Below, piece by piece: positions 42,201 through 64,000 of a stretch of 64,000 nucleotides of DNA. The stretch's first letter is position 1; each line of letters starts with the position of its first letter. A program made the position numbers and the translations under genes. The DNA is from Taiwanofungus camphoratus (lineage: Eukaryota; Basidiomycota; Agaricomycetes; Polyporales; Taiwanofungaceae). The stretch lies in assembly GCA_003999685.1 (NCBI GenBank), contig CP021231.1, positions 930,001 through 994,000 on the forward strand. The letters run 5' to 3'. The notes under the pieces were generated by a model, which did not search any database, was not told where the DNA came from, and saw nothing but the letters and a program-made list of their open reading frames with translations.

Positions 42201-42579
42201 AAATTAGGAAATTATAATTATATAATCATGACTTTTAGATGTCTGATGAGGTAAAGAAGAACCAGCAAGTCAGCACCATCGCCAATGAAGCCTGTCAACA
42301 TTCTAAAGAAGGGTCTATGTGTTACAGTTGTAAAATTCAGTTGTGCCATGCTCGTGGTAGACGACTGATTGCTATATTGTATCTGTTACAGTTGTAAAAC
42401 TACATGTTGTCACTATTAGCTGATTGAGTTCTGTATTGTCTAAGAAGGACCTTATCTCAGTCATGCTGTGCTCATGGTAGATGACTGAGGGGTCTCACTA
42501 TCTACTTTGCATCCAAGTGTTCTGTGTCACAATCACGTTTCTGTTACATTCGTGTCAGCGACCTGCATGCACTGACACT

Positions 42580-43160: not shown

Positions 43161-43271
43161 GAATCATACCACAGCCACTCCATCAGTTCCAGTCTGATGT
43201 TTCAGTGCACTGTTCCCTCTGTGTGCAATATATCATATGCAGTGCCACTAAATATTCTCACACATGACTGG

Positions 43272-44932
43272 TGATATGACCTAGGAGACCCTGGTATCTA
43301 GAAAGTGCTCTGTAATGTGGCTAAGAAGTAGTGGGGTAAACTGTGGGGATGTGAGAAGAGGAGCTACAACCTGTATGATATCGGGAGGCCTGTATGTCTT
43401 GTTTTATATAAGTAAGGGAGTAAGGGGTCAAGGGTCCTGTGCAACAGGATCTTGCTCCTATGTGCTAGACAATCCCAAAGACCTTGCGAGGCCCTCTGAA
43501 GTGTGTGAAGTCCTTCAAAGTTCTGCGAAGGCCTTTGAAGTTTTAGCTAAAGTGCACTAGCTCACTTCATAGGCTGCGTAGAGTTAGGGAGCAATAAGTC
43601 AACGGAATATGGGTTCAACTAATCGGCAAAGAATACAAGACTGCTCTGAAGTCTTTAACTAGAGTTAGCTAAAGGGCGTAATGCTTCAAAGTTTGTTAGA
43701 GCGAGGTGTGCGAGATTTGACTAGCGTAGGAGACCTATAGAAGAGGTCAGATGGTTCGGGGAGTCAATACTTGGAGTAGGGATGGGAGAACAAGGTCACT
43801 GGAAGTTCCAAAATGTCTGTTGGCTTCGGAGTGTAGGTCGGAGAGTTCGAGGGCATAGGGGGATGTACTATGACCTGAAATGGAGGTTATAGGAGAGTTG
43901 TAGTACTATTGTGGGACGTAGGGATGACACAACGTGAGCCTTTGGATATAACTAAGGTGGAGGCCCACCAGATAGGTGCTATAGGATGTACTGAAGGGTG
44001 CAAAGTCACATCGGCTTCATGGATCGTAGTGCACAGTTCGAGGGGCATAGACGTAGTTCGTAAATATATCGTGAGCATAAATGTAGTTCAAAGATACTGA
44101 AACGGAGCTAGGGTGAAGACTTTAGGGGCTTAGGACTGTTTCTAAGGCTGCACTCGTGGCACTTTCTGAGGTCAGAGCTATAGGGGACTTGTATTCTAAA
44201 GGAAGAAGCATGCACTGAGGAGTCTCTCTGATACATGGTAAACTACCTCTGACTAAATAGGAGAGAGTGAGGTGAACTATTCTGACACGAAGTGATTCTT
44301 ACAAGTCCGAAATGTGTACTCAAGTGCATGGGCTCTGAAGTGAACACAAGAAGGATAGAAACTAAATAGGAACTGAAACAGGGGAACTATGTATGGTAGA
44401 AAGGTGACCAAGTCCATCCATGAGGGCAGGATGACTATTCGAGAGCAGCCATGCACCATGATCAACTGTCTTAGTTGGCTAAGAGCGTACAAAGTTTCTT
44501 AGCAGTGGGACTTGTTCTAATCAAGGTAGGAAATGCCCTAAATGGGTAGAGGATCATATGGATGCACCATAGAAGGACCTTATGATATAGGATCAAGACC
44601 CAGAGGGTGCGCAAGGCTTCCTGAGTCCAGCCTTTGAAACTTCGGACCATTTTGGAGCCTATCGGAGGTGCCTGCAGTTACAAGAGATTGGAGAGACTTA
44701 GCTAAGCCTTCTTAGCTAAACCCAGGATGAGTGACATAGTAGCTGAGGCCTGGACCTAATAGAACAATATGAGAGGGCCAGCAGTGTCCGATAGTGGACT
44801 TAGTAGGAGTTAGGGATATTGTGGCTAGTGTTTGAAGCTTTGTAGCGCCTCGTGTGACTTTGCAGGACTTCGTGGGGTGTTAGAAGGGTTTAGGAGACAA
44901 AGGAGATGTTAGGAACATCATAGGGACCTATC
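43272..44932. mobile_element. Old solo-LTR-like element (same superfamily as 49041 and 58335)
   Basis: It begins TGATATGACCTAG like the two copies at 49041 and 58335 and shares, in the same order, blocks such as GTAAGGGG ... CAGGATCTTG, the GGTAGAAAGGT block and a GATCATATGGA block, at clearly lower similarity. The right end near GACCTATC is approximate. No coding content. It looks like the oldest of the three copies. Confidence 0.5.
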
Positions 44933-45029
44933 CCACCTGTTGTAGGCTGTAGAAGGATCATAGGATGGTCTGTGAGGGGATTAAAAAGCTCCTAAAATCA
45001 CAATTCAGAGCCCAGAAGACTACAGAACT

Positions 45030-47545
45030 CATTCCTGGCCTCACCACTCCAATATTGCACAATCTGTTTCAACACACCACTTAATGCACTCGATAACACT
45101 ACAGCCACAGATTTTGTCTTAGTCTATTTTATGTACATACATTCCTGTGTCTCAGCCTTTCTAGTGACATCAGTATAATAGCCACTCCCTCTACAAGCCA
45201 CTCTGTAGTTCATAGTATGCAAGTAGTTAGGATACCACTCATACTACACCACTTCTAATACATCTTACATTATAGCACAGTAGTATAAACACGATGTACG
45301 GCATTTTGAAACAACAAAGAAGTTTCCCTCATCCTATAGAGCTTAAAAAGAGCATCTTCAATTCAGTCTTCTACTGCATTCTACTGCATCTTTCTGTCTT
45401 TGATTATATTCAAAGAGTTGCATCTCTTATCCACCTTTTACAGTATTTTGAAGGGTTGTGTCCTATTGATACGTACTACAACACTCCAACCCCTACTGGA
45501 TACAATCTAGAGAAGCTGAAAGGCTATAGAACTGTTAGTGAGCAAGGGGAGAGTCAGCAGCAAAGGGTTCTCGAATTAAATTGGTTGAGAAACATCTATG
45601 AAGGTCTTTGATGACCTACAACGTGTGTCATAACTGCTCGACATAGCTTCGATGTGCAACTATGCTGTACTAAACTAGAGAGGGACTAGATATAATGACT
45701 TGACTGATATGCAACCCTTCAACTACTGTAGAAGGCAGACTTGGGTTGAGATGAGATACTAGCACAACCCTTTAATGTGACTCAAAGGTGGACGTAAGAC
45801 TGAGATACTAAAATGCAACTCTTTAACAGATGTCGAAGACAGATAGAACACAACTCTTTGATGTAAGTCAAAGGCAGACTGAAATGCAACCCTTTGATGG
45901 AGTCAAAGGCAGATAAGTGTAAAGAATAACTGAATGCAACCCTTTGATGGATGTTGAAGATGTGTTACGGGGGAGTCTACGCCTGTAGGTGACTACTGTG
46001 ATGGGGAGTTGTTGAGTAGTCAGGTGTGAAGTGTAGACGAGGAGTCAGCCTGGCTGATGACGAGTATACGCCTAAATTTTCAACCGTTAGCCCAACGGTC
46101 TCAAGAGAGTTGCGGGCTAAGTCACAGCCTAAGTCCTAGTGTAGTCACAAGGATATAGACGAAGGTATGAGGGCCTAAGCCCAGATGTAAGGTACAAATG
46201 ATAACAACAGCACCAAAGTACACAGTGTAACTAAAGAGGACAAGATTGGGGTGCTCCGCAGTGAGCCAACCCCTTAAGTATTATGGTGGGTTTAGGGCAA
46301 GCCAGCCCTCACTCTCACAGGTGCCAGTACCTAAGTGTCCATAATTAAGCGGGTGACAGTCAGCCCATCAGGAATAATGGTGATAACTGTAAGTGTACAT
46401 GACCTGCTAGTCCAGTATAGTGAAGAGAAATGAAAATATATATTCGCACCGTTACCACCTTGTAACAAGATGGACTAGACACAATCCTTCAAAATACTGT
46501 AGAAGGTGGATAAGAGATGCAACTCTTTGAACATAATCAAAGACAGAAAGATGCAGTAGAATGCAGTAGAAGACTGAATTGAAGATGCTCTTTTTGAGCT
46601 CTACAGGATGAGGGAAACTTCTCTGTTGTTTCAAAATGCCGTACATCATGTTTATACTACTGTGCTACAATGTAAGATATATTGGAAGTGGTGTAGTATG
46701 AGTGGCATCCTAACTACTTGCATACTATGAACTACAGAGTGGCTCATAGAGGGAGTGGCTATTGTACTGATATCACTAGAAAGGCTGAGACACAGGAACA
46801 TTAATACACTTTATAACACTCCAACCCCTACTGGGTACGACCTAGAGAAGCTGAAAGGCTATAGAACTAGTTAGTATGCAAGGAAAGTCAGCAGCAAAGG
46901 GTTTCCGATCTCAAATTGGTCGAGAGATGTCTTCGAAGGTCTTTGATGACCTACAACATATGTCACAACTACTCAACGTAGCTTCAATGCGCTACTATGA
47001 TGTACTTGTACTAAGGAGAGGCTTAAATGTGAGAACTTAGCTGAATGCAACCCTTTAAGGTGACTCAAAGGCAGACATAGGACTAGACACAACCCTTTGA
47101 TGGATGTCAAAGATGGACTTAGATACAACCCTTCAAGATACTGTAGAAGGTGGATAGTAAATGCAACTCTTCGAGTATAATCGAAGATGAAAAGACGTCG
47201 AGAAACGCAGTAGAAGACTGACTTGGAGGGGCTCTTCTTGAGCTCTACAGAATGGGGAAAACTTTTCTGTTGTTCTGAGACATCATACATCATGTTTATA
47301 CTACTGTACTATAATGTAAGGCACATTGGGAGTGGTGTAGTACAAGTGGCATTTTAACTACTTGTGTACTATGAACTATGGAGTCGCTCGTAGAGGGAGT
47401 GGCTACTGTACTGATGTCACTAGAACAGCTGAGACAAAGGAACATACATAAAATAGACTAAGACAAAACCCATGGCCATCATGTTATCAAATGCATCAAG
47501 TGGCACGTCAAAGCTGATTGAGTGATATTGGGGTGGTGTGGCCGA
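45030..47545. repeat. 2.5 kb imperfect palindrome with three related arms
   Basis: The segment 45030-45470 reappears inverted at about 47100-47545, and its inner part also inverted at 46475-46800. A block starting CACTCCAACCCCTACTGG at about 45482 is copied in direct orientation at about 46818. Short tandem units containing CAACCCTTTGATG ... GTCAAAGGCAGA, each able to form a CTTTGA/TCAAAG hairpin, fill 45700-45962 and 47040-47200. The arms contain short open stretches (for example MYGILKQQRSFPHP), but these look fortuitous. A solo LTR splits it. Confidence 0.65.
45963..46467. mobile_element. Solo LTR, 505 bp, Gypsy-type
   Basis: Ends TGTTAC ... GTAACA form the standard LTR inverted termini. 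The five bases AGATG flank it on both sides (45958-45962 and 46468-46472), a clean target-site duplication. No internal coding region, so it is a recombination relic. It is inserted in the hairpin tandem repeats of the palindrome at 45030-47545. Confidence 0.9.
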
Positions 47546-47609
47546 TCATGTGCGAAGACATTTGAGTGGCAACTGCATATGGCATATTGTGCGTAGAGAA
47601 TGGTGCACT

Positions 47610-48624
47610 GGAATGTCAGACCAGAATTGGCAGAGTGGCTGTGGCGTGATTCGACGCTATCAGAGAGTTTTGCGGTGGCTTTTTGGGCTGTATCAGACGT
47701 ATCGAGTGGTGTCGAAGACTGTGGCTAAGGCTCATTGTGTCAAAAAGGAACACCACCAAGAAGAAGCCACACATGTGGCTCGAGAGCATGAAGAGGTGGC
47801 TGCCTGTCAACAAGAGGTGGAGGAGGTCATGCAGTTAGCTGATGTCAAGGTTTCTAGGCTGGTGGAGGGTATTAGAGAGCACGTCAAAGAGGCCACCACC
47901 CCTTCAAAGAGAAGGAAGTGGGCTCGGGATGATGAGGGTGACACTGCAGTGGTAAGTTACAGAGTCTTGTCCTCCTGTTTGATTACTGACCAGTTTGTAG
48001 AAGGTGTTGAAGAGCAGCTGTGACGGTTCAGTGACATCCAAGACTGACTGGGCATGAGTCGTGTGGATGAAGCAGCAGGTGGGGGAAAAGGTACGTGAAT
48101 TGTTTCCTTCAGTTATTTTCCTGTGCTAACACTTCTTCATAGTGCAATCGATGTTGGACCCGCACTCAAACCATCAAATGTGTCTGGAGAGAGGGCGCTA
48201 CTGCATGCAATCAGTGTATCCAGGCAGCACAGGGCTGCTATTTTGGTGGCGTCCTGGTTCTGGGTCGTACAAAGAAGACTTGCAGTGGTGCGAAGAAGCA
48301 GGGTGCATCCTTTTTTTTCTTGTCTCTGATATTGGTCTTGACTTGTCTTTTTCTGCAGCCCCCCCTCCTTCACCTGGGCCTTCAATGGGTGAGGCCAGTG
48401 GATTGAAGCGACACTGGACCATTTGACAACCGCACCCTTCCGTGAATGTTCCTCTGGATGGTGGCAGTCATCTGGGCTTAGAGCAAGATGACCTCAACTC
48501 CCTCCCTCTTGATGAGCGTTCTTGTGCCACCATCCGCCTTATTCGAGAGGAGCGTGCAAACATTGCGCTCCATCACACCATCCTCCATGACATAGATGTA
48601 GAGTTGATGAGGCTGAAATAGGAG
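47610..48624 (+). pseudogene. Zinc-cluster-like protein, interrupted by one in-frame stop
   Basis: From an ATG near 47610: MSDQNWQSGCGVIRRYQRVL, a coiled-coil-like middle (HVAREHEEVAACQQEVEEVM), TPSKRRKWARDDEGDTAV, then, after an intron (about 47953-47999), a short exon with one TGA at about 48056-48058 in the frame that leads into the cysteine cluster CNRCWTRTQTIKCVW and ACNQCIQAAQGC. The spacing C-x2-C-x8-C-x8-C-x2-C-x6-C resembles fungal Zn2Cys6 binuclear clusters. The last exon gives a helical tail ending LHDIDVELMRLK. It may be a DNA-binding protein carried by, or next to, the mobile block. Unlike the TET/JBP gene it is not CpG-depleted, so it may have a separate origin. Confidence 0.55.
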
Positions 48625-48639
48625 GTGGTCACACAATCC

Positions 48640-49040
48640 AGTAAGAAAACCCGATTGCAACGGGCCAATAAATGCTGAGTTTGGCCCATTGTGAATGGGC
48701 CATCCAACATTGGCCAACCATTGAAACAAGCCCCATTGCAATGGGTCGGCCGGGTGTGAATGTATTCTCATTGTAACGGGTCGGCCAGACATGAAACCTA
48801 TCTTCAACGGGTCAGCCAGGCATGATATCTACCCATTGCAATGGGTTGGCCAGTGATGGACCCATTCTGTTGCAATGGGTCGGCTGGCCATGGAAGTAGC
48901 CCATTGCAATGGGTTGGCCGGAGATGGGACCAGCCCATTGCAACAGGTCAGCTGGTGATGGACCCATCCCATTGCAACAGGTCAGCTGATGATGGACCTA
49001 TCCCGTTGCAACGGGTCAGCCAGCGATGGTACCTACCCGT
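48640..49040. repeat. 34-bp minisatellite, left half
   Basis: About a dozen diverged units near 34 bases long, each with the palindrome CCCATTGCAATGGG followed by a GGTCGGCCAG-like stretch and ATGGACC. The array continues at 50943 after the inserted LTR-like element. Non-coding between the zinc-cluster gene and the TET/JBP gene. Confidence 0.8.
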
Positions 49041-50942
49041 TGATACGACCTAGGGAGTCCTGAACTGGGGGGATGAACCTAGAGAGTAGGTCCGATGCGT
49101 CCCAATGAGTAGAGAGAACTAAAGCGGTGTGGTATCTGTGAAGGATACCAGAGGAAAAGGTAAGTGAGGGAACATGACAGAGAAACTACCTAGACCACTG
49201 TCAGGGGCCTAAAAGTCTAGTGTGTGCAGAGGAGTAAGGGGCCAATGAATCCTGCACGACAGGATCTTGTGCCGAGGTGTGGACAGTCCCAGGAAGGTAG
49301 GAGCATGGTCTTCTAATCTAATGGCAGTGGGCTGGTCAAATGACAGCCAGGTGCAAAGGAGTCAAAGAAACTGAGGGCGCACTGGTGGTAAATCGAGAAC
49401 CGAAAGATAAACCAAAAACTGATGTAATCAGGATAGGGGGTACTGCTGAGGGCTGATGTCGTAGGAATGGTACATTGGGCTGTTATAGGTGATGACTGAT
49501 AGACTGGACTGTGCGCAACACGTGCCTATGGGGTATAACGAGGGCGGAGGCACGTCGGATGAGGAGGAGAAGAGGGACTGATTACTCAGGCTGAAGTTAC
49601 TTCAACTTCAGGAACGTAGGACATAGAAGACGTAGAACTGCTGTGATATAATGGAGAGGAACCTTGTCAGACTGTAGGGAAGCCTTAGAGCAGGGGAAAC
49701 CCAAATCTGAACTCTGGGGGACAAGTCTGTAGATTCTGCGAGACAAGACAGGAGTATGTATCTTCTCTCTCATCTGGTAGGTACAGGAGACTACATAAGG
49801 GGTCCGTGGTGTCAAAGTATCTTACGCAAAATAAAACTGAAGAAACTGAAAACAAACTGAAAATCATAAAATCTAGGATTTGATCAGCGTACCATATGGG
49901 GAACTAAACTGAAGTAGGACATGAAACAGGAACACTGAATGCGGTAGAAAGGTTACAGAGGAATGACACAAGGTGAGGGATTCTTATCTAGAGATCATCG
50001 TATGGAAGATGGGCTATATCAAAATGGGACGCAGGGAACAGCAATTAAGTGCTGGAGTCCGAAGTAAGCCACAGAGATGTATTCAGATAATGTACTCTAC
50101 TACATACCTGGAGTCCGAAGTAAGCCACAGAGATGGGGGCTACTCCGGACTACAGGGCACTATTTATGCTGGTGAGAACAAAGGGCTCCACCACAGAACA
50201 ATAGAGTCCATCAAAAAGGGAACAATACAAACATATGACCCAGCCACAAAACTAATGTGGCCTGTGTTCAACTCCAATCCAATAGCTCCGCCACTAATGA
50301 TGTAAGTGGCCCACAGTCTACTGTGGCCACTCCAAGTCCGGCAGCACTCCAGCTTGACCAAGGGACTGTGGCAGAGCACATTATTGTGACAGGCTATCTA
50401 ACCAGGCCTTGGGGGGAATAGGGACCTAAGAGTGCTGAACTGTCAAGCCGATGCGTAGGGAGTCTAGGCAATACCAAGAGATCATATGGACATTATGAAC
50501 AAGAGGCTGGGACTCTGGACCAAGAGACCAAGAACCAGAACTGAGGATCAAAGACCAAAAACTGAAGTGGCTTTTCTCAGTTGATCTCAACCAAAGGCCC
50601 AGAGTTGTCAGAGGTCAGAAGGATGCTAGGGGAGGCAGCAGGCATGCATTCTAAAGTGTGAGGGACCACTTCTCTTCAACAGGGCTTCTGGAGTATCAGG
50701 CAGACCTTCTATCATCAGAAATCCCATTGTTCTTTCTGGATAGGAAGGCCGGATTGCCAAGGCGTGAGTAGACACATACAGTGCACCTGCCTGCCGAGTT
50801 AGGGCACTTCCTAGTGATTGAATAGAGCTCTCTGTCCTTGTTACGACATTCAGACTTTCGAAACTCGGCAGTACATTCCGAGAAAGGGGCAGAAGACCGA
50901 AAATACACAAATTTGGGGCATGGAGTTGTACCAGACCTATCA
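49041..50942. mobile_element. Solo-LTR-like element, copy 2 (1.5 kb plus a 380-bp nested insertion)
   Basis: Starts TGATACGACCTAG and ends AGACCTATCA, giving 5-base inverted ends TGATA/TATCA. Flanked by CCGT on both sides (49037-49040 and 50943-50946). It is collinear with 58335-59896 at roughly nine in ten bases by eye. It interrupts the 34-bp minisatellite. No internal coding region. Confidence 0.8.
50018..50397. mobile_element. 380-bp insertion nested in the LTR-like element
   Basis: Absent from the sister copy at 58335-59896. GGCTAT stands on each side (50012-50017 and 50392-50397), a likely 6-base target-site duplication. Contains two copies of CTGGAGTCCGAAGTAAGCCA about 57 bases apart. 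Family not recognised. Confidence 0.65.
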
Positions 50943-51205
50943 CCGTTGCAATGGGTCAGCCAGCGATGGACCCATCCTGTTGCAACCGGCCAGCTGGCGA
51001 TGGACCCATCCTGTTGCAACAGGTCGGCTGGACAGGGTATCTACCCATTGCAACAGGTCGGCCAGTCATGAAACCATCTTATTGCAATAGATTGGCTGGG
51101 CAGGGTACCAGCCTGCAGTAATGGGTTGACTGACAATGGAACCAGCCAGCTGCAATGGGTCAGCGGGCAATGAACCCAACCTGATGCAATGGGTGAGGCA
51201 AGAGT
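50943..51205. repeat. 34-bp minisatellite, right half
   Basis: Continuation of the array at 48640-49040 (about seven units, GTTGCAATGGGTCAGCCAG-type), separated from it by the LTR-like insertion and ending about 215 bases before the TET/JBP ATG. Confidence 0.75.
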
Positions 51206-51419
51206 GGGTCAGCTGAACTGGGTTCAACCTGTTTCTGCCCATGTTTTGCTGATTTTGTCTATTATATACATATATTTTTTATTGGCTTTCATTTACAGTC
51301 ATTGTCATATTGTTTGTCATCATATACATACATTTGGTCCATGTCAATCATTTTTTTTTCCACTTGCCAATTTCAACTGTACCTCAGACTCATCATCTTT
51401 GGTTTTGAATGAAACTGTC

Positions 51420-52713
51420 ATGAGCACACCTATGGCCAATCACTTTGAATATACTGAGAATGTGGCATCTTACCTTCATCAACTTTTCTTACATTACCTG
51501 TCTCAAATGTCCCTTGATCCCCCTCCACCTCCTTCTTCTATATACCCCAGCTTGAGCTTCTCATTGAGATTTGTTCAGAATGCCTATCAGATATCTGCCA
51601 AGTTGGCAGAAGCCTATATGACCCACTGTGAGCCAGAGACAGTTGTTCTGATGTCTCCATTGCTGATGTTGTATGATTGAGCAGTGACAGTGCCCTGGGA
51701 CATCAGAGCCTATGCTGAACAGCTGACCCCTCAAATTTCTGGGTTCAACAAGGCTCAGGAGGCCAGGATCTCTGAACAGTTCCCTCCATTGTTTGAAGAT
51801 CCCATGCCAGTCATCAAAACCCCAGTGACTGTAGTGGATCAGCATGGGAAGATTCTGGTATGGCATCTACCTGATGTGCTGAGCCCAGAGCATCAGGTGA
51901 GTTTGATCTGATTTTTGCTTGTGATGATGAGCATGATGTTTGAGATGGTCAGCACCAGATATGGGATGATTCAGTGATGCTGAACCAGATGTTGAAATCC
52001 CATCATCTCCAGTCAGAGGGCAACTGGAGGATGAAGTCTGAGTATTACATGAATGAAGATCAGTGTGAGCAGTTTCTCCCTGGATGCATCAACCTGTCTC
52101 TAGCATGGTTTCAACAAGGACATGAGGTGAGTGACAAGGGATTTTATACTCACACTAGTTCTGAGATGAGGCCAACACCTAGAGCATAAGTTTCAATCTA
52201 GAGGTTTGCAGTGTGCTGAAGAAGCTAGACTCTGTGAGCAGGGTATGGCTGCAGAGGATGAGGGAGACCTCTGCATTGATAGGGGAAATAATGAGCATTA
52301 TTCACCCTGAGCTTTACAGGTCTGGCATGGCCTCATTAAGAGGGATGCAATGGCTTCCAGGGGTGGATGAGGTGCTGAAGGAATGGCATTCGCCCTTCAA
52401 TGTGATGAGCTTCATTGCCAACAGGGAAAGTCCCAGTCACAGGGACTGGAAGGCCATGGCATGCTGGTATGACATCTTGGTGACCATTGAGAACTCTCAA
52501 GATTTGACCTTGGATCTGAAGGGGGTGGGGGTGAGACTGGCCTATCCTAGTGGGACCATCACAGCCCTGTCTGGGAGGACCATTTTGCACAGGGTGGTGG
52601 GGAAGGAGAAGGAGAGGATATGTCTAGCCTACTATATGAGGACCAAGATACATGAGAGAGCAGAGGTGTCATTGGCTGGTTGGATGAGTGTAGATACATA
52701 TGATGGAGTGTAA
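51420..52713 (+). pseudogene. TET/JBP-family DNA dioxygenase, one in-frame stop before the catalytic domain
   Basis: 2-oxoglutarate/Fe(II) dioxygenase of the fungal TET/JBP family, which oxidises 5-methylcytosine or thymine in DNA. The start MSTPMANHFEYTENVASYLH at 51420 is followed by SLSFSLRFVQNAYQISAKLA and LMSPLLMLYD, then one TGA (51678-51680), then the same frame continues AVTVPWDIRAYAEQLTPQIS, ending exon 1 with WHLPDVLSPEHQ. Introns at about 51897-51957 and 52127-52204 join MNEDQCEQFLPGCINLSLAW and FQQGHE to VLKKLDSVSRVWLQRM. The catalytic core is whole: MSIIHPELYRSGMASLRGMQ, SFIANRESPSHRDWKAMACW (H-x-D iron ligands), YDILVTIE, GVGVRLAYPSGTITALSGRT and ILHRVVG (third iron ligand), ERICLAYYMRTK (2-oxoglutarate arginine). 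All expected ligands are present, so decay is recent, or the protein starts after the TGA. The gene is nearly devoid of CpG. Confidence 0.88.
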
Positions 52714-53189
52714 TATGCAACTTGACATGCCCACACTCTCAGACATTGATCCAATGACCAAGCTTTGAGACATCAAAGGACTGTATCCACCACCCCTCTG
52801 CCCACAGGCACTGGACCTTACCCAATGGCACCAGTCCTGACCTGACGGTGCTGTACATCTTTGCACTGGCATCGAACATCTGCCTGATGGTGCCATTCCT
52901 CTGCCAACTGGTGTCAGACCTGACCTAATGGTGCCATACCTCCTTGGTCCAGTGCTGGACCTCCACCCACCAGCACTGCAACCTATCAATGAGTTTGATA
53001 GACCTCATGAATGTGAAATTCTGTGACTTGTTTGGCATCTGTGATTGCCATGCCCATGGGCAGAGGTGCTGATCTTGAGTCCATCAGTGGCATATCATGT
53101 GACCTTTAAGGTTGAAATGATGCATCTGATATCAACCTCCCCATCTCCATCCCATTCACCTCCCTGTCCATAAGACCTCTGTGACCTCA
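52714..53189. other. Gap between TET/JBP gene and the next cargo gene
   Basis: About 475 bases with loosely repeated CACTGGACC/CAGTCCTGACC-like segments (52800-52990), possibly an old minisatellite. No gene. Confidence 0.4.
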
Positions 53190-54248
53190 ATGGCCTCTGC
53201 TGCTACCATTTCCCTGCTTGACTCTATGGAGGCACATCTGGTCCTCTCTGTCCATCTGGAGATCATGAGGGCCAACACCTTTCCTGAGGATGCAGAGGTG
53301 CAGATGGTCATGGCCAAGGGAGTGGTGAGTACATGATGGACCCTTGGTGCCATTGTCTGAAGGACTCACACATTCACATCCCCTGTTGCAGCTCCAGGCT
53401 GCCATGACCATTGGCCTGAGAGCCATTGCAGGCTTGGATCTTCACATCCCTCCCAGCCTTGAGGACTTGGTGAAGAGTGATATGCAGGGGCTTCTCCATC
53501 AGGTGAGTGTCATCCTGAACTCTTCCATTGCCTGGAGTTCATGGTCCTCCATAGACCCAGCTGGCTCCAGCATTGCCCAGAGAGTCTGAAAGTGTGGTGG
53601 ACACAGGGCCCACTGAGCTCCAGACCCCATCAGAGGATGTCCAGCACTCTGCTGTTGAAAAATCCAGGTCACACCCCAACCTGAAGCTGTGCAGTGCCCC
53701 AGGTCCCAGCATCTCCCAAGATCATGCCATCAGGATGGGCAACTGGTGGAAGGCCCAGATGGGTGATGCCCCTCCTCCCTGTCCTCCAGAGATCCTTGAT
53801 CTCTTGCAGTTTGTCCAGCAGATCTTTCAGGGGAATGACAGGTATCTGAGGCAAGAAATGGTGCTTGCTGTCAAGCACAAGATGGAGGCTGATGCTAATG
53901 TGAGAGACATAAAGAGAAAGGTGAGTGCTCTCTAAGTGCCTCTTGTCCCCTTCCATCTTGAACCAGACCATACAGATCAATGAATGGAGAGCCCATGTGG
54001 AGGAGCAGCAACATCCTGCTGTCTCAGCTGCTTCAGCATATGAGGGGCCCAATCTGGAGGAGTTGGCAGAGAGGTTGTCTGCCCAGATGGATAGGTCCAT
54101 TGTGAAGTACTTGGAGGGAGTGCAGGCCCACATGCTGCATGTGAATCAGCAGCTGGAGTATGAGATTGGGGTGAGGGTCAACATGCTCAGGGAGATTGAC
54201 ATGATTGCCAAGATATGGGACCTGGAGAAGGAGCCTGTGCTTCTGTAA
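53190..54248 (+). CDS. Intact helical protein of unknown function in the KDZ/TET block
   Basis: No family recognised. Four exons splice cleanly with GT-AG introns (about 53323-53391, 53502-53552, 53922-53967) to about 300 residues: MASAATISLLDSMEAHLVLS, EIMRANTFPEDAEVQMVMAK, GLDLHIPPSLEDLVKSDMQG, TQLAPALPRESESVVDTGPT, NWWKAQMGDAPPPCPPEILD, LLQFVQQIFQGNDRYLRQEM, then coiled-coil-like NEWRAHVEEQQHPAVSAASA, LAERLSAQMDRSIVKYLEGV and AHMLHVNQQLEYEIGVRVNM, ending WDLEKEPVLL. No stops break it. I saw no CpG at all between 53041 and 54248. Same strand as the TET/JBP gene and convergent with the KDZ transposase, so it is likely cargo or an accessory factor of the transposon. Confidence 0.75.
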
Positions 54249-54324
54249 TTGTTATATGAACTTATCTGTAGCTTGTCCACACAATGATATCAATTTCCTT
54301 CCTAAAGGCTTGAACTGTTGTGTC

Positions 54325-54620
54325 GATGTCACAGTAACAGTTCCAGCATAAAGTTGCAGTGCAGTCAAAGTAGCAGTGCCAGCAGTCCCAGGTTCAGTTC
54401 CAGCCATCGAAGTAATGGTGTTAACAGTGAAAGGTGCATAAGGTGATCAGGCCAGCAGGTAAAGTTGCGATGCTGGCAGGTGCAGTTGCGGTGCTGGTGG
54501 GTGAAGTTGCGGTGCCAATGGGTGAAGTTGTGGTGCCAGCAGGTGCAGTTGTGGCATCAACAGGTGCAGTTGCAGTGCTGGTGGGCAAAGTTGCGATGCC
54601 AGCAGCCCAAGAGTCACCCC
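54325..54620. repeat. 24-bp minisatellite between convergent genes
   Basis: Units close to GGTGCAGTTGCGGTGCTGGT, period 24 bases, about 8-12 copies, best ordered at 54430-54620. Lies just after the stop of the KDZ transposase (54689) and after the helical gene (54248). Both strands are open across part of it because the period is a multiple of three. Confidence 0.7.
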
Positions 54621-54688
54621 ATGGTAGTTATGTGATGTTGACATAGGCTGTGGTCATGCATGAATACAAACATCCTACAGTACATGGG

Positions 54689-57600
54689 CTACTTGCTCCA
54701 CCCATTGACATAGCCTCTCTGCATCTCTTGCCAATGCCAAGTACAAGGATGCCTGTTGAGCACCATATGCCTATGACCTATCTGGTCCCTGTCTGTGAAT
54801 TCCTGCATGAGCCTCACCCACATCTCGCTCTGGTGGGCAAAGTAGTTGGTAGCAAACCTCATCTCATACCTCAGCTGCTTCTCTTCTTCCACCACCCTGT
54901 CATACCTGGACTTTGCCCTAAACCAATTCACCCTATAAACTGTCACCCCCAGCCATTCATGAGACACAGCCCAAGGGGTGATGGCACTCACATTCCTGCA
55001 TATATGAGTCCGTGTCGCTTTCCCCTTGAATATCCATGGTCCAGAATCATGGAAGAGATGTCTCCCTTTCTCCCCTTTTATTGGGATCTGCCACTGCAGT
55101 GCTCACTTTCAGATGCTCTCTGTGCAGAACCTGATACTTGGCCAGGAGGTCAGCTGGGGCCTCAAGAAGCACCAGGGCCTTCCAGGCCTTGCTGTACACC
55201 CTGGCATGATGCTGCAGGGTTTTGTCTATGGTGTTGACATCCTGCCATGCCCTGGTCTTCCTCTGCTGGGACTTGGCATGACGCACTTTGGTGCGGAACA
55301 AGAATGACTTTTGCCTGATGGCGATCCAGATCTGATGAAGGGCATCGTTGGCCTGACCTTCCCTGAGATCCATCTCCTGCTGCAGAAGCACTTGAAGGCC
55401 TGCCCGGTGGCACCTGTTCACTCTGGTGGTGGATGAAAGGGAGAGAGATGAGTATTTGGCCTCCACCTCAGGGTTGACCCCTTGCGAACTGGGCACCTCA
55501 AAGGGATTGTCCATCTCAGTGACATCCCACTCCTCACCCAGATCCTGATCCAGTGGTAAAACCTCATCTTCCCACTCCTCCCCATTGTCATCCATCAGGC
55601 TGGCCATGTACCTTGATCTTTGGGACTCAAAGCTGTTAATTCTCATTTGCAGCTTCCTCCTTTTTTCCACCAACTGGATCTTCTGCTGGGTGGTCAAATT
55701 CTGGCCCATGGATCTGACCTCAGTGGCCAAGGAGATTCTGTGCCCATCATGAGAGGATGAAGATGTCATGATACATGGCACCACTCACTGTGTCTCCTGC
55801 ACCTTCAGGCCCTGAGTCAACCATCCAACAGCCCCTCAGGACAAACCCAGGTGGGGCTCCTTCTCGGCCAGCCTCAGTTGGATGTCAGCCTGGCTGGGTG
55901 CTGGAGAATGAAGGCTGATGTTGGAAAGAGATGGTTCCAGCTGCATGCTGATGCACTTACCTTTCCTGAGCTCCACATCAAAGACATTCATGGCTTTTTC
56001 ATTCTTCAGCCTGTGTCGTTGAGCCTTTCTCATCTGCTGTTTCCACTGGACCAGCAGAGTGGGATTGGTGCTGGCCTCCATGACCTGATATGACCTTTTG
56101 GTGTCTGTCAGTATGGGCTTGATGTTCTTGTACTTTCTCTGCAAGGAAGACACTGTGTGGGATGCCCTGGGTCAGCCGAATCCACTCATTGCCAGGATGG
56201 GACCATCATACTGGTGTTGATGATCTTTTTCCAGTTGGAGTCATTCATGTGCTGGTTGATAACCTCCTTCCAGTGAGAGGTGGCCATGCCTCTGTTGCTG
56301 CCGGACACCTTGTTCAGAGAAGACCAAAGAGTCTCGAGGATCTCCCCGTCCACCAGGCTGACACCAGGGATGAAGCTGGGTGAGTATCGAATGAAGCAGG
56401 CATCCTGGTGCCCATGCACATGAAACAGGCTGATGTCCTTGACAATTTTGAGACCTTCGGGCATCTGAAGATAGGGATTTTGCTGGAACTGCTTCAGCAA
56501 ATACTGACCATACTGGCAGTTGATGTCATAAAGCAGGAGCATCCTGCCAATGTCCTTTGTGTTGTACCCAATGGCATTGGACAGGGAGTAGTCCATGTTC
56601 ATCTGTCTCTCCCCCTTTTGAAAGTCCACGACGGAGTGTGGAACAAAGCAGCCATGCCGAGGACAGGCAGTGGCTCCGATCCCAGTGGACTCCAGCTTGT
56701 GCCGGTCAGCATTGGCCAGGTTGATGGCCTTGTGGTTGTGACAGGTGGTCAGCTGTGCAATGGAAAGAAAGACACATGGGATCATGGGCATGGGGACCAG
56801 TGAGATGGGAACCTACCCCCTTGAGCTCCTTGGCCACCTGGAGATGGGCCTTGTACCTGCCATTGGCCACAAAGAAGCTGGTGCTGTCAGTGATCCCCAT
56901 ATCGTTCCTGGGCCTCCTCATCTTGAGATGCTCTGCAGAGAAGTTGCCATCCATCATGAACCCTTGGGTGTACACCGATCTGGACATGGTCAGACCGGGC
57001 ACAGCCAGACCAGGGTCAGATCGCTTACTGGTCAGAATGTTCCTTCCAATCTGGGTCCAGATTGACTCCAGGTTGTGGGCAGGCAGCGCAGAAAAAGACA
57101 AGGTCACCTTCTCCAGGCTGCTGTCTGGATGGGTATCCAAACCCATGTTGCATGAGGTCCTTGAGATGAGACCACTGTCTGGTGACCCTGAGGAATTGCT
57201 GATACCAGTCCTTGATGGTGGGGTACCCCACGAGCATTGGCAATCTCCTGGTGTGTGGCGGTGGGAGCACTCACTGGCATGGCTTGGGGGAAAATGGGAT
57301 TGGTTGCCCTCCTGAGCCGGCTATAGAAGTTGAGGGTGGAGGTCTTGCACTTGAGGTTCTTCAGCAGGAAGTCATTAAGGACCTTGAAAGTTAAACATGT
57401 TTTGATGCACCTGTGGCTGGCCAGGTAGAGGCCCATGTCCAGCAGCTGGTCTTCATGACGAGGGGCATTCACGCACCCACACCAGTGAATGGAAAGTTGG
57501 TGAATGCCAGAGGTATCGACCACGACCATCATTCGATGGTTGCTTCTGGCACCAAACACCACAAAGGCATGATTCCTGTCAATGTACTCTGAAGGCGATC

Positions 57601-60304
57601 CCAATTTTGCATGAGGTATGTGTTACCGGGGGGTTCACCCTGGTAATGCTGCAGAAGCTTGGAGCGGTGTGCAGCGAAGGGTCGAAGAGGAGCGACGGTG
57701 ACGACGAGTCACGATCCTCGTTGGTCTTCAACTACAAGCCCTATGTAGTCGCGATAGTCTTTACGGGCTTCTTGAGGTGCGAGAAGATGTGTGAAGACTA
57801 GCGTGTATTGGTACTAATGCGTAGTACACTTCTAGGAAAGGATGAACGAAGAGAATACGACTAGGGGAACCTCCAACAGTGGGACCCCCCTTTATACTGC
57901 CACCATCAACCCCCAGGTATACTAGCAGCCCCCCAGAGACCGCATAAGGTGAGAGGAGTCAGCGGCCCGAAAGTACATAACTACCATGGCGTAAGCGGGG
58001 ACGGTCGGCCCGTCAGTCAATCTGGGTAAATAAGGTGTGGAAGGGATGCCGCGCGTCCATGGTGTGACAAACAAAGGGAAAGAAAAAATGAACACGTCTC
58101 TGGTCCTATCCGACAGTAACAGTATGCCCTGTGTCTCGCTAATGGCACTGCTATCTTCACTGGCAGCACCAAGATCATCACCGTCGGTGCTGCACTCATT
58201 GCCATCAGCACCACACTCATTGCTGATGGTGCCACAGTCATTGCTGCTGGTGCTGCAGTCATTGTCACCGGTGCTGCACTTATTGTCGACAGTGCCGCAC
58301 CCCTCACCGATGGTGCTGCACTCATCACCACCGGTGATATGACCTAGAGAGTCCTGAACTGTTGAGATGAACCTAGGGAGTAGATCCGATGCATCCCAAT
58401 GAGTAGAGAGAGCTAAAGCAGTGTGGTACCTGTGAAGGATACCAGAGGAAAAGGTAAGTGAGGGAACACGACAGAGAAACTACCTAGACCACTGTCAGGG
58501 GTCTAAACGTCTAGTGTGTGCAGAGGAGTAAGGGGCCAATGAATCCTGCACGACAGGATCTTATGCTGAGGTGTGGACAGTCTCAGAAAGGTAGGAGTGT
58601 GGTCTTCTAATTTGATGGCAGCAGGCTAGTCAAATGCCGGCCAGGTGCAAAGCAGTCAAAGGAACTGAGGGCGCACTGATGATAAACTGAGAACCGAAAG
58701 ATAAACCGAAAACTGATGTAATTGGGATAGGAGATACTGCTGAGGGCTGATGGCGTAGGAATGGGATGTAGGGCTGGCGTAGACGATGACTGATAGACTG
58801 GACTGTATGCAACACGTGCCTATAGGATATAATGAGGGCAGAGGCACATCAGATGAGGAGGAGGAGGGGGACTGGTTACTCAGACTGAAGTTACTCCAAC
58901 TTCAGGAACATAGAACGTAGAGGACGTAGAACTGCTGCAATATACGATATAATAGGACTGCTGGCCGATGATAGACGTAGATACAATGGAGAGGAACCTT
59001 GTCAGACTGTAGGGAAGCCTTAGAGCAGGGGAAACCCAAATCTGAACTCTGGGGGACAAGTCTGTAGATTCTGTGAGACAAGACAGAAGTGTGTATCTTC
59101 TCTGCCATTTGGTAGGTACAGGAGACTACATAAGGGGTCTGTGGTGTCAAAGTATCTTACGCAAAATAAAACTGAAGAAATCAAAAACAAACCAAAAATT
59201 GTAAAATCTAGGATCTGATCAGTGTACTATATGGGGAACTAAACTGAAGTAGGACATGAAACAGAGACACTGAATGCGGTAAAAAGGTTACTGGGGAATG
59301 GCACAGGGTGAGGGATGCTTATCTAGAGATCATCTATGGAAGATGGGCTATCTAACCAGACCTTGAGGAGAACAGGGACCTAAGAGTGCTGAACCATCAA
59401 GCCGATGCATAAGGGGTCTAGGCAATACCAAGGGATCATATGGACGTCATGAACAAGAGGCCAGGACTCCAAACTGAGGGACCGAGAACCAGAACCAAGG
59501 ACCAAAGACCAAAAACCAAAGTGGCTTTTCTCGGTTGATCTCAATCAAAGGCCCAGAGTCGTCAGAGGTCAGAAGGATGCTAGGAGAGGCTGCAGGCATG
59601 CATTCTAAAGCGTGAGGGACCACTTCTCTTCAACAGGACTTCTGGAGTGTCAGGCAGACCTTCTATCATTGGAAATCCCATTGTTCTTCCCAAATAGGAA
59701 GGCCAGATTGCCAAGGCGTGAGTAGACATATGCAGCGCACCTGCCTGCTGAGTTAGGGCACTCTCTAGTGATTGAATAGAGCTCTCTGTCCTTGTTATGA
59801 CATTCAGACTTCCAAAACCCGGCAGTACATTCCGAGAAAGGGGTGGGAGACCGAAAATACGCAAATTCAGGGCATGGAGTTGTACCAGACCTATCACCGG
59901 CACTGCACTCATCGCTGATGGTGCCGTGCCCCTCACTGATGGCACTGCACTCATCACCGACAGCACTGCACTCATCACTGACGGTGCTGCACCCATTGCC
60001 GATGGTGCCGCACCCCTTGCCACCGGCACTGTAACTATTTTTGACGGTACTGTGTTCATTCCTAACAGTGCCATTGGTATCATTGTGTGGTGATTCCCAA
60101 TTATCTGATTCTGGAATGAGCACACACAAGATCCTGTTCTTGAGCACACCTCTGAGGGCACCACTCACTCGGCACGTCATCTGGCCCTGGGTTTGTGAAG
60201 ACCAGAATGTCATCTGGCACCTCTCCCCCCTCTCCTTCCAACACCCAGTCATCCTCGGCCTTTTCCTCATCAGAGGACATCCCATCCTGTCCATCCAGGG
60301 TCAT
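54689..60304 (-). CDS. KDZ-family transposase, split by two LTR-type insertions
   Basis: DDE transposase of the Kyakuja-Dileera-Zisupton class. From 60304: MTLDGQDGMSSDEEKAEDDW, VLEGEGGEVPDDILVFTN, an intron, then a cysteine heptad array encoded by a 21-bp minisatellite (59897-60080 and 58140-58334), then KLGSPSEYIDRNHAFVVFGA, a CxC2-type zinc region (HWCGCVNAPRHEDQLLDMGL, CKTSTLNFYSRLRR, DWYQQFLRVTRQWSHLKDLM, VFFCAACPQPGVNLDPDW), the catalytic core (GFMMDGNFSAEHLKMRRPRN, MLLLYDINCQYGQYLLKQFQ, VKDISLFHVHGHQDACFIRY, VDGEILETLWSSLNKVSGSN) with the acidic residues expected for DDE chemistry, and a helical C-terminus (APSQADIQLRLAEKE, SAITPWAVSHEWLGVTVYRV, TWHWQEMQRGYVNGWSK). Exons are open on both sides of about seven short introns. 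The insertions at 57621-58121 and 58335-59896 and a Gypsy LTR two bases before the ATG must abolish or alter expression. Terminal repeats of the element were not found. Confidence 0.88.
57621..58121. mobile_element. Solo LTR, 501 bp, Gypsy-type, inside the KDZ gene
   Basis: Ends TGTTACC ... AGTAACA. GTATG flanks it on both sides (57616-57620 and 58122-58126). Same terminal bases as the solo LTR at 45963 but a different body, so a related, separate family. No coding region. Confidence 0.9.
58140..58334 (-). repeat. 21-bp minisatellite coding for cysteine heptads, first part
   Basis: About nine units of GGTGCTGCACTCATTGCCAT type on the plus strand. Read on the minus strand in the KDZ frame it gives units such as GDECSTI, NKCSTGD, NDCSTSS, NECGADG with Cys every seven residues. 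Continues at 59897. Confidence 0.8.
58335..59896. mobile_element. Solo-LTR-like element, copy 3 (1,562 bp)
   Basis: Starts TGATATGACCTAG and ends AGACCTATCA, flanked by CCGG on both sides (58331-58334 and 59897-59900). It is the uninterrupted sister of 49041-50942. Inserted exactly within the 21-bp minisatellite. No coding content of its own. Confidence 0.85.
59897..60080 (-). repeat. 21-bp minisatellite coding for cysteine heptads, second part
   Basis: About nine units; on the minus strand in the KDZ frame it reads NEHSTVK, NSYSAGG, KGCGTIG, NGCSTVS, DECSAVG, DECSAIS, EGHGTIS, DECSA. In phase with the part at 58140-58334 when one CCGG target copy is counted. Confidence 0.8.
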
Positions 60305-60306
60305 GG

Positions 60307-60783
60307 TGATACAAATTGGTATCTCGGATCCTATACGTTGCCTCACACGTGAGGGCCTGACCACGATAGAAGGTGGCGAGGTCTTATGGTCGATATGGAC
60401 CGAGTGTCGTGAAGTCCGTAGACTCGAGTGAGTATCACTCAGATGTGAGCGAGAGGATACAAGACACGAATATAGTGGTAACAAGATCAGACTTAAGGTC
60501 CGACCTAAGCTAAGTACATGGTATATATACAAATACCAATCATGAGCACGGACCAAGAACTACTCTAGGGCAGGAGGTCCGTTAATGTGGTACGACTATA
60601 GATAAATAGAAAGTGGTACGATCCGGGCGTATTAGCAATACGTATAAGTGATGAGGAATGTGGTAAGCGGCCCGGATATGAGTCAGAGTCCTATGTGTAA
60701 GCGGGGCCGAACCGGGGCCCATACAGTAATAGTCCATGTGTAAGCAATGACCGTGGTAATGACAAGAAATAGAAATTGTATCA
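60307..60783 (-). mobile_element. 3' LTR of the Gypsy element
   Basis: TGATACAAAT ... AATTGTATCA, 477 bp, with 10-base inverted ends. The adjacent TTACCCCCTTA (60784-60794) is a polypurine tract on the minus strand, as expected just upstream of a 3' LTR. The left flank is CATGG, which includes the ATG of the KDZ gene. Confidence 0.85.
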
Positions 60784-63700
60784 TTACCCCCTTACTAAGG
60801 TCGATCTCTGAACGACCCTACTTGATTTTCCGTTAAATAAAATGTTCATCAGCTGTACGGGTGTTTCACCGCGTACCGTGAGGGTGTTTCACCTCGAATC
60901 CCAATGAGAGTGTTTCATCTCGTTCCGTGTGAGACAGACAGCGACCGGGTAAGGACCCACGACATCGTGTAAGCCTTGTGCAATGTAGGCATGTGGGCGG
61001 CCGGGTAAGGACCCAGCACCGCTTGCAACCTACCGCCTCAAGCAAACAGTACCCCTACTGTTCACCATCCCTGTAATCCTCGAACCCATAGTCGTCCCAT
61101 TCATCGTCATTCATGTACGAGTTAGAGGGCGGGTCGTAAGTCCCACGACGGTAAACAGGTGGTGAAGAAATGACTTGGGGGAGGTGATAACTCGGTGGGG
61201 GAGGTGGGATGACTGGGGGAGGTGGGATGACTGGGGGAGGAGTGAATCGGCCGTCGGGGCCATGAGTAAAGGGGCCAATACTTGCCCCGGGTTCTGCAAG
61301 GTGTTGGTTGGGCAGTATACCCGGTCCGGATAAATGGTTGAGTGGTGGCCCAGGTGCGCGTGGGTGAGGGTGCGGGGTATCGATTCGGGATGGACCGGCC
61401 GTTGCGTTAGTGCGAGGGGTTGACGCCTCATTGACTCTGGGGCGGGATGGGGTAGGGGGAAGGGGTTGCTCTCTTCTGGACATGAGAACACGTGGAGGGT
61501 TGGTGGCTGACATGACCGGGATGGGTGCTTGCGTGGGACAGTGGATCGAATCGACTATCTCGCGACGACAATCTTCTCCTGAGGCAGGTAAGATGGGCGG
61601 CGCAGAAGCGTGGCGTGCTACTGTACACTCTCGGGATAGGTGTCCCGGGGCAGTGCGATGACATCTGGCACAAGTGTAGTCTGGGCAGTCACGTACCCAG
61701 TGCATCATACTGCCGCAGGCGTGGCAGCACCCTCGAGGTCTCCAGTTGGGTCCGGGGCGCATGTAGTTCGGGAGCGAGTCGATTCTACTAGGTACGGCTC
61801 CGATGGACTCTTGCCCGGCCGGGGTGTCGATGAAGGTTTGCAAGGGGTCTTCGGGTTCGGGTGGTGGGGTGGGCCCGCGCGTGACAATGTCGGGCTGAGA
61901 TCGTCGTATAAATCGGTTGTGGCTGGACCGTCGGTGCGGGGCGATCATGTCCTGGAGGTGGCGAGCCATGGACATGTCATCCATTCTTCTCATGGTGCGG
62001 ACCACCTTGAAGTCTAACTGCCAGATTTTGTTCTTCCATATGGCCAGTTGCTCTGTTGCGTCGTCTACCGCTCCTAGATATTGTAGCCTAGTGTCGATGT
62101 ACTCTCCGAATGCCTCTTGTTCATCCTGGTTGTTTCACGTGTTTGGTAGAGACACAAGTAGTCGTGCAATGTCCCTCGAGTGTCGAACCAGGATGTCGAG
62201 GAGGACGGGGTCCACATCGTAGATGCAATGCGGGTAGTAGATGACGTCGGCTTGTCGGGGTAGGGTGCCTTCTCCCGGTATGGGGTTGCGAAAGTGTGCG
62301 GCAGTTTGAAAGCCAAAGAGTGGGCCGTGACCAGAAGACGTCAAGGATGCCGATGACGAGGATTGTACTGCCGTAGGAGAGGTGGTCGTCTGAGGTGTGC
62401 GGGTAGCACGTCGAGTGGCGAGGAAGGCGCGGGCTCGGCCACGAGCGGCAGCTTGGGCGGTGGTGTTAGACTGGTGAGGCATGTTGCGAGCGGGTGGTAG
62501 TTTGTCCGACGGGAGTGAACTGGACTTAACTCAAGTTCTTTCTCCCCTTATATGCTCCCAGGAGTTCCTTCGCAGTACCGGCTAAATTTGCTTCTGGTTC
62601 CCATGAGTCATCCGCCGAAGAATATCCTTTCCACCTGACCCTGTACTCGCGGCGGTTCTTCCGTAAGTTCTCCCGATGTCCGATGATAGCTTCGACTTCG
62701 TAGTTATCTTTGCCTTTGATAAGTTCCGGGGGTGGTCTCGTGTAATTCTGGCCATGGATCTCCATCTCTGTATATGGTGATAGGAGGGTAGCGTGGAAAA
62801 CGGGGTGTACCCGCCATGTCTCCGGGAGTTTTAGTTTGTATGACACCGGGCCTAGGACTTCAATGATTTCGAAGGGTCCCTCTCTCTTGAGTGCTAACTT
62901 CCTGGAAGGGTACGGCAGTTTTAGGTTCTGAGAGTCGAGCCAAACCTGCTGTCCTTTACGAAAACCTTTCCCTCGTGGTTTGATCCGTTTCGCGAGTACT
63001 GCCTGGGCTAGCTCCATCGCCATGTGTGCTTGTTCTCTTATCTTCTGGAGGTTCTTCAAGCGATAAGCTGCGCCGGGTGTGTCCGATCCTTTGTGTACGA
63101 CGGGAATTCCTCACGGTTCGAAGCCCATCATGACTTTGAACGGCGACGTCTTGATCGTCGAATGTTCCCTGGAGTTGTGAGCGAATTGTGCCGCGCTGAG
63201 TAAGGAAGACCACTTGTCCGGGTTGTTGCTCGTGAAGCATCGAAGGTATACTTCGAGCTCCTGATTGACCCGTTCCGTTTCTCCGTCCGTTTGAGGGTGG
63301 AAAGCCGTGCTCATGGTGGATTGCACCCCTGTCATGCGGCATAGCTCTTGGAATATCTTTGATGCGAATTGTGGTCCACGATCGCTGATCACCTTGTCTG
63401 GGAGTCCAAACCATTTGTAGACCTCGTTGTAAAGGAGTTTCGCCGTTCCTTGCGCGTCAATAGTTTTGTTGCATGGAATGAAAATTACCCCTTTACTAAG
63501 GTCGTGGTCCACTACGACCAAAATTGAATCGTAGCCCCCCGAAGTTGGCAAATCCGTAATGAAATCGCAGCAGAATGTACTGAACGGAGTGGCGTGCTGC
63601 GCGGACTTGATCGGGAGTAGGGCTGGTCGGGTAGGGTGCGTGTTAGTTTTCATTTGTTGGCATGTGCCGCAACCTTTGACGTATTGCGTGACGAAGTCCG

Positions 63701-64000
63701 CCATACCGGGCCACCAGTAGTCCCGTCAGATAGACGAGAGCGTCTTCTGAATTCCAGGGTGGCCGGCAGAGGGGAGGTCGTGATAATTCGAGACCATTTG
63801 TCGTCGTAGATCCTTGTCTAGGGGAATATACACCCGATTGTCATAGAGGAGGTCTCCGTCCTGAATTGTCCAGTGGTCACTTGAGCCTTTTTGTGCATTG
63901 TGCATCCCTTCCAGATACATTGAATCATTTACGCCTGCTTCCGCGATGGAAGCCCTGAGACTCGTGTCTATGGCCGCTGCCCATACTTTGTCCGGTAGGA
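60307..64000 (-). mobile_element. Ty3/Gypsy chromovirus-like retroelement, partial at window edge
   Basis: Virus-like fossil running off the right edge. On the minus strand, from the right: the zinc-binding H2C2 region of integrase ([14 protein letters not shown] near 63650), the integrase core ([59 protein letters not shown]), a chromodomain (YRVRWKGYSSADDSWEPEAN, about 62560-62700), then a separate reading region at 61055-62482 with Arg/Pro-rich sequence and CCHC zinc knuckles (CHACGSMMHWVRDC, CARCHRTAPGHLSREC), the polypurine tract and the 3' LTR. Reverse transcriptase and the 5' LTR lie beyond 64000. The sequence is CpG-rich and only lightly decayed (about two or three breaks in this window), so it is probably recent. 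A zinc-knuckle region downstream of integrase is unusual. Confidence 0.9.

Follow-up and report, generated by a model that had tools for sequence, protein, structure and literature searches.

The 64,000-nucleotide stretch analysed here (the window: Taiwanofungus camphoratus assembly GCA_003999685.1, contig CP021231.1, positions 930,001 to 994,000 of the forward strand) contains a block, 51205-57615, that is nearly emptied of CpG dinucleotides and is the core of an old DNA transposon of the Kyakuja type, with a KDZ transposase gene, a TET/JBP dioxygenase gene and a putative third gene in open reading frame 3 (ORF3). We consider it very probable that the CpGs of this element were methylated by the host and lost by deamination in two phases, one in the source lineage before the copies spread and one in each copy after its insertion. 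Both phases have left their marks in the sequence, and 5-methylcytosine is the probable cause to which these marks point. For the most part, the desert is the ordinary wear of an old jumping gene.

With the observed/expected ratio (o/e) of 0.965 in the gene-rich part of the window (1-40000) as the basis for all expected CpG numbers, the whole block holds 45 CpG at an o/e of 0.11. The original prediction, made from the letters of the window, had reported no CpG in 51215-52392 and 53041-54248, two or three in 52392-53041 and about six in 55041-55640. A recount finds one in the first of these stretches and agrees on the others, with 0 (about 81 expected), 2 and 6, respectively. The KDZ gene is CpG-poor as had been claimed, with 36 CpG in 54689-57600 (o/e 0.18). 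The Poisson log10 P of the deficit is -22 for TET, -35 for ORF3 and -44 for KDZ, and the window's longest and second-longest CpG-free runs, of 1450 bp and 1226 bp, lie here (Table 1). An o/e below 0.1, which had been named as the value that would support the desert, is found in 14 of 16 200-bp windows in 51201-54400 but in only 5 of 16 in 54401-57600. Outside the block it occurs in 3 of 204 windows in 1-40800, all three within a repeat at 33.6-34.3 kb, and in 4 of 39 in 40801-48600.

The missing CpGs reappear as their deamination products. In the TET, middle, ORF3 and KDZ parts of the block 46-67 CpG per kb are missing versus 54-66 extra TpG+CpA per kb (59 lost versus 49 gained in the KDZ sub-stretch 55041-55640), and because deficit and surplus are equal, the loss is real and its outcome is TpG or CpA, the excess that the original prediction had proposed to look for. 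The desert is not confined to the block, however, as had been supposed. The region from 40.9 to 60.3 kb is CpG-poor throughout, with the lowest values in the block and an o/e of 0.34 in 40900-48629, 0.39 in 48630-51204 and 0.49 in 57616-60306, and a 730-bp CpG-free run lies far to the left in a small repeat. In the flanks of the block a TG+CA surplus of 18-25 per kb covers part of a CpG deficit of 30-35 per kb. The region of a zinc-cluster gene, said to be rich in CpG, has an o/e of 0.40-0.43 (47-49 kb); the long terminal repeat (LTR) element of the Gypsy type and the gene-rich part are indeed CpG-normal, at 0.96 and 0.965.

How the CpGs went can be followed in the other copies of the element. 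Genome matches comprise 12 pieces to the ORF3 stretch, 15 to KDZ and 11 to TET, which reduce to 13 compared copies or parts with a core identity of 89-97%, except for two near-identical pairs. The alignments omit pieces of 250 bp or less and are anchored on the window copy (on the B2 copy for progenitor densities and transversions), insertions of other copies forming no columns; union CpG counts use all copies covering at least 90%, including both B5/B6 and both B9/B10. Three further KDZ places (four matches, L019-L022, on C4, C8 and C9) were tabulated for CpG only, outside the copy comparison, and have an o/e of 0.52, 0.14, 0.19 and 0.26 for the loci with their flanks. Parts of the element are shuffled in places: in the C13 copy (L048) the orientation of ORF3 against TET and KDZ is reversed, and a 9-kb stretch on C5 (L052) holds TET without KDZ.

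The union of CpG sites amounts to 2 in 1211 bp of ORF3 (10 copies), 16 in 1671 bp of TET (9 copies) and 96 in 2981 bp of KDZ (7 copies). At the 96 KDZ sites the seven well-covered copies carry CG 200 times, TG 217 times, CA 211 times and other states 44 times. The comparison among KDZ copies that had been suggested bore out the predicted route: 58 sites segregate exactly CG/TG/CA, compared to 6 in a GpC control, and 13 are TG/CA only (control 1), while one-sided changes are found at 24 sites versus 63 in the control and no CpG is common to all copies versus 116 GpC. Singleton C-to-T changes affect 25 of 93 CpG sites versus 0.013-0.036 per site elsewhere and are thus 7-20 times commoner there, with contexts defined by majority neighbours (unanimous neighbours would leave 4 CpG contexts). 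Retention of KDZ CpGs varies by copy from 0.12 to 0.45, and retention in the 34-bp minisatellite units tracks it per copy (n=6, Spearman 0.94; Pearson 0.78, P 0.07), the motif counts covering the whole blocks around copies, not the arrays alone. As read from these alignments, the pattern fits slow, independent deamination of methylated CpG rather than mutation of the CpA type.

Where copies lose a CpG independently, part of them will end with TG and part with CA, and such a mixture betrays a CpG of the progenitor; in simulations on the tree of seven copies the chance of recovering such a site was 0.93-0.97 at the observed retention. Counted as CG-bearing plus TG/CA-only sites in sets of five copies, progenitor sites number about 4.1 per kb in ORF3, 12.3-12.9 in TET and 35.6-36.2 in KDZ, alike in three sets; the expectations at present composition are 62-79, 54-64 and 60-83 CpG per kb, respectively. 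The common progenitor was therefore already bare of CpG in ORF3 and in much of TET, and about half worn in KDZ. The minisatellite arrays were CpG-dense in the progenitor (ratios of about 1.0-1.9, inflated by misaligned units), and copies taken singly have 24-60 CpG per kb in the array on the left versus 0-16 in the TET gene. In the window copy, the modelled introns of TET hold 0 CpG of 6.8 expected and those of ORF3 0 of 10.4, which favours regional mutation over codon choice.

The reading frames were compared under the exon model of the window copy, which is open by construction. Stops are present in 11 of 12 KDZ copies or parts, in 4 of 10 for ORF3 and in 3 of 11 for TET, whose frame is thus free of stops in the other 8 (a half copy included; small indels unscored). 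Among the 13 KDZ stop positions 5 are of the CGA-to-TGA kind, and 8 of the 12 copies or parts have at least one such stop. Omega was estimated, context-corrected and only from sites with two states and an unequal split, in six TET copies (the window copy, WIN, with B2, B3, B4, B5 and B8) and in seven copies each of ORF3 and KDZ, with one copy per near-identical pair. For changes seen in a single copy it is 0.91 in TET (76 changes), 0.79 in ORF3 (94) and 1.02 in KDZ (200), and for shared changes 0.88 (17), 0.46 (56, z -3.1) and 0.75 (130, z -1.7), respectively. Singleton nonsense changes number 0 versus 4.9 expected in TET, 3 versus 4.1 in ORF3 and 7 versus 10.8 in KDZ; the TET set omits the stop-bearing copies B9, B10 and B11 and the half copy B7, and this hint of selection is not used as evidence. 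The encoded proteins are shifted towards Met, Trp, Gln and His, with Arg and Thr mostly down, a trend confounded by protein type. Taken together, the source lineage appears to have kept its frames during CpG loss, and decay after insertion appears to have been near neutral. The earlier argument from surviving frames to selection runs these two phases together and fits only the source lineage before the spread.

Could the encoded oxidase have shielded the element, or does the desert depend on it? TET-carrying transposons have been proposed to escape host methylation, and the desert had been taken to mark such a transposon. A Tc1/mariner-type family (DDE_3, 38 bits) is present in the genome in 34 copies of at least 1.1 kb, and all five copies read have a CpG o/e of 0.00-0.055; one of these has a TET copy about 1 kb away, and no TET match is close to the other four. 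With 8 CG-bearing and 11 TG/CA-only sites in 1288 columns, the mariner progenitor was therefore depleted as well. A repeat resembling a miniature inverted-repeat transposable element (MITE; Table 1) sits in an otherwise CpG-normal stretch of the window and has at least 7 relatives at 82-87% identity, CpG being read in the window copy only. Since both repeats are equally bare, TET is neither needed for the loss nor protective in inserted copies, and the view that the desert marks a TET-carrying transposon finds no support. The inserted TET copies studied are as worn as these two TET-less families. Judged from sequence, the oxidase thus appears to have given inserted copies no protection against CpG loss on an evolutionary time scale. 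DNA-methylase matches above the cut-off were found at four places in the genome, one of them with an RFD match 2.5 kb away, and such genes are reported in other Basidiomycota too in a passage of PMC7862722. Along with the matching TpG/CpA gain and the CG/TG/CA trios of KDZ, these genes support the methylation-type deamination of the original prediction.

The mechanism that we propose would run as follows. CG-type methylation by the host would mark the CpGs of the element, and methylated CpGs would deaminate one by one, on either strand, to TpG or CpA. In the first phase, before the copies spread, the source lineage would have lost nearly all CpGs of ORF3 and most of those of TET, its frames staying usable. 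In the second, after each insertion, the remaining CpGs of the KDZ gene and the minisatellites would decay near-neutrally and to a degree specific to each copy, and CGA-to-TGA stops would be part of what breaks the transposase frames. The same route would hold for at least two other repeat families in the genome.

Several observations weigh against so simple an account. Non-CpG singleton C-to-T changes are raised too (CC 0.036, CA 0.023, CT 0.013; core 51200-57620, seven copies), and a breakdown of the raised CC and CA rates by trinucleotide brought out no explanation. Relative to the density of the gene, the progenitor CpGs of KDZ stand at 0.86 across codon boundaries and, within codons, at 0.55 and for NCG at 0.27; the contrast between boundary and NCG is not predicted by simple deamination plus selection. 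The 21-bp minisatellite units track KDZ retention less well than the 34-bp units (n=7, Spearman 0.71, P 0.07); by chance alone their motif turns up 11 times in 40 kb. In ORF3 the trio CG/TG/CA is absent (control 1) and 6 sites are TG/CA-only (control 1), too few traces for the route of its CpG loss to be read from the copies. Transversions between copies amount to 21.6 per kb in ORF3, 6.7 in TET and 7.1 in KDZ. The modules therefore have no single clock, and a history common to all three does not account for them; the excess in ORF3 may come from recombination between copies or from its deeper origin.

Among the other explanations the one that survives best, though we think it unlikely, is a fusion of two parts: a TET-ORF3 cassette taken from another genome or from an old copy worn by methylation, and a KDZ half that was fresher. 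It would not conflict with two-phase deamination and would explain the uneven progenitor. Modules of the element do move, as the inverted ORF3 of the C13 copy and the C5 stretch with TET but without KDZ illustrate, and the threefold transversion divergence of ORF3 over KDZ also speaks for a separate origin. On the other hand, the equal divergence of TET and KDZ indicates that these two spread together, and most TET copies, within the limits of that count, are free of stops.

A burst of C-to-T mutation at CpG in repeats during the sexual cycle, akin to repeat-induced point mutation (RIP) and to what has been inferred in a smut and, on weak evidence, in rusts, appears improbable. It would suit the strong differences in CpG retention between copies, repeats would be its targets, and CpG signatures together with a Masc2-type DNA methyltransferase (DNMT) are reported for Basidiomycota in a part of PMC4352252. 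However, the losses do not cluster by strand: overall, 253 of 494 neighbouring losses are alike versus 249.5 expected, with one of the 7 copies at P 0.04. Nor is there a preference for TCG, small as the numbers are (TCG 8/26, CCG 12/51, GCG 4/8, ACG 1/8), and one copy harbours a nested LTR element that has been spared, though this is young. RIP of the Neurospora type (CpA to TpA) was considered separately and rejected, as TpA is low, not raised, in 51-57 kb (o/e 0.24-0.62).

With still less confidence we entertain a mosaic design, in which the source lineage maintained CpG-dense arrays, at the ends and between the genes, as CpG targets, perhaps unmethylated through the element's own TET, alongside a CpG-bare TET-ORF3 block. 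If this were true, host methylation would be erasable where it matters and would find nothing to mark in the erasing gene, and the arrays would decay only after insertion and silencing.

Selection for CpG avoidance, by which the TET-ORF3 half would have been purged since a methylation-proof coding segment spreads better, is very unlikely. The progenitor was CpG-poor in ORF3 and TET while its KDZ gene was half worn and its arrays CpG-dense, and all Arg codons of the window copy are AGR in TET (17/17) and ORF3 (14/14), although CGN makes up 68% of those in 17 long frames of the window that lack stops; KDZ has 47 AGR and 13 CGN. Yet the modelled introns are equally bare, the TG+CA surplus shows the ordinary mutational route, the mariner progenitor was depleted as well, and three other TET copies retain one CGC codon each. 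Codon usage or base composition in place of mutation, for which the AGR arginines throughout TET and ORF3 might speak, can be dismissed on the CpG-free introns, the normal GpC (o/e 0.80-1.16 where that of CpG is 0.00-0.22, 51-57 kb), the TG+CA surplus and the segregating CG/TG/CA sites, the first two of which alone reject it as sole cause.

TET+ Kyakuja DNA transposons have been described in Agaricomycotina (Kojima 2025, PMC12730594), and by the description given there they combine, as here, a KDZ transposase with TET/JBP in one element. The CA at the left end and the lack of an inverted repeat of at least 30 nt would fit as well. The termini described are 5'-CA...TG-3' with a 7-bp target duplication, of which only the left CA end was recovered in the window element. 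The TET/JBP domain of the window (PF12851, 62 bits) has the HxD motif and distal His of 2-oxoglutarate-Fe(II) dioxygenases and matches structures of CcTet from Coprinopsis cinerea (PDB 8jkk, 7vpn, 7w5p; homologous domain, 62.8 bits), with HRD and the distal His aligned and shared. It has Asp at the position aligned with CcTet Asp337 (numbering inferred from a passage of Kojima), as reported for TET+ Kyakuja elements. At the position of CcTet Gly331 the window copy, whose protein is a predicted one, differs in having Ala; Gly or Ser is reported there for TET+ Kyakuja, as an observation and not a definition. The KDZ transposase domain (PF18758) reaches 142.3 bits (cut-off 26.6) and the CxC cysteine cluster associated with KDZ (PF18803) 81.9 bits. 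Of the lineage names Kyakuja, Zisupton and Dileera we apply the first provisionally, in view of the TET gene, of the left end in CA and of a missing terminal inverted repeat.

While the type of element is already known, our literature search found no published match for the uneven CpG content of the progenitor. Judged by titles, the search returned nothing on CpG loss in Kyakuja or KDZ elements, which we do not take as a claim of absence from print, and the main text of PMC12730594 neither uses the term CpG nor describes its loss. A CpG-to-TpG signature in repeats of genomes that have a Masc2-type DNMT is presented in Amselem 2015 (PMC4352252), where one smut shows it clearly and two rusts very weakly; the decay here is of the same type but extreme, and looks slow rather than like a burst. 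The strong CpG decay would also qualify the statement, cited in a passage of Kojima 2025 (PMC12730594), that hypermutation is undetected in Agaricomycotina. Because sequence alone, through TG or CA by copy, tells CpGs that a copy lost once inserted from those already gone in the source lineage, the idea of methylation escape becomes testable across species.

Table 1. Features of the window discussed in the text
Feature	Position	Strand	Basis or remark
MITE-like repeat with inverted ends (93% alike)	33594-34325		almost wholly a 730-bp CpG-free run; internal control without TET
CpG-poor neighbour stretch outside the KDZ element	40900-48629		o/e 0.34
TET/JBP-carrying KDZ (Kyakuja-type) transposon copy	48630-60306		homology limits to other copies and common left terminus
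34-bp minisatellite	48732-49042, resumes at about 50943-51186 past nested insertion	+	units hold two present or former CpGs
Nested 1.9-kb repeat	49043-50942		dozens of genome matches
1226-bp CpG-free run	51164-52391		spans TET exons and introns
TET/JBP dioxygenase gene	51438-52709	+	exons 51438-51627, 51685-51896, 51953-52126, 52183-52709 (modelled; true start uncertain)
1450-bp CpG-free run, longest of the window	52873-54324		spans ORF3
ORF3, putative third gene (uncertain model)	53190-54244	+	frame model
KDZ transposase gene body, CxC2 cysteine cluster, six modelled exons	54710-57588	-	Pfam and model
21-bp minisatellite	58181-58325, resumes at about 59895-60031	+	units with CG, TG and CA variants
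Second nested copy of the 49043-50942 repeat, 1.6 kb	58326-59897		87-90% identical
LTR retrotransposon cutting the KDZ element	60307-64000		LTR similarity; CpG o/e 0.96

The left terminus common to the copies, CACACAATCC, begins with CA at 48630. On the right the window copy is cut by the LTR element at 60306/60307, and other copies extend at least 3 kb further. A right terminus was sought and not found, the right arm extending past the stretches compared. No inverted repeat of at least 30 nt was found in 48000-62000, and a search downstream for the 7-mers preceding the left end, as a sign of the 7-bp target duplication, gave scattered matches only, the right end lying beyond the compared stretches. 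ORF3, searched in two pieces, matched no Pfam family above the cut-off. The second nested repeat splits a frame that is unbroken for 326 aa in another copy. The nearest reverse transcriptase match to the LTR element lies just beyond the window; a related LTR element nested in another KDZ copy has an o/e of 0.98 and LTRs that are 99.2% identical.

A 3.5-kb insert in the KDZ gene at L042 (1784-5287, C9), with a relative in L044, has an o/e of 0.09 and a TG+CA o/e near 2.0, and its longest frame matched no Pfam family. The right arm of other copies (L036, 5076-5549 and 5990-6811) holds further open frames without a Pfam family, which are absent from the window copy up to the end of the window. 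Near a TET copy on C9, L050 (2071-2946) encodes a fungal transcription-factor domain, PF04082 (46.8 bits). The o/e of the stretch around it is about 0.13, which looks as though the repeats had drawn a host-like gene into their wear.

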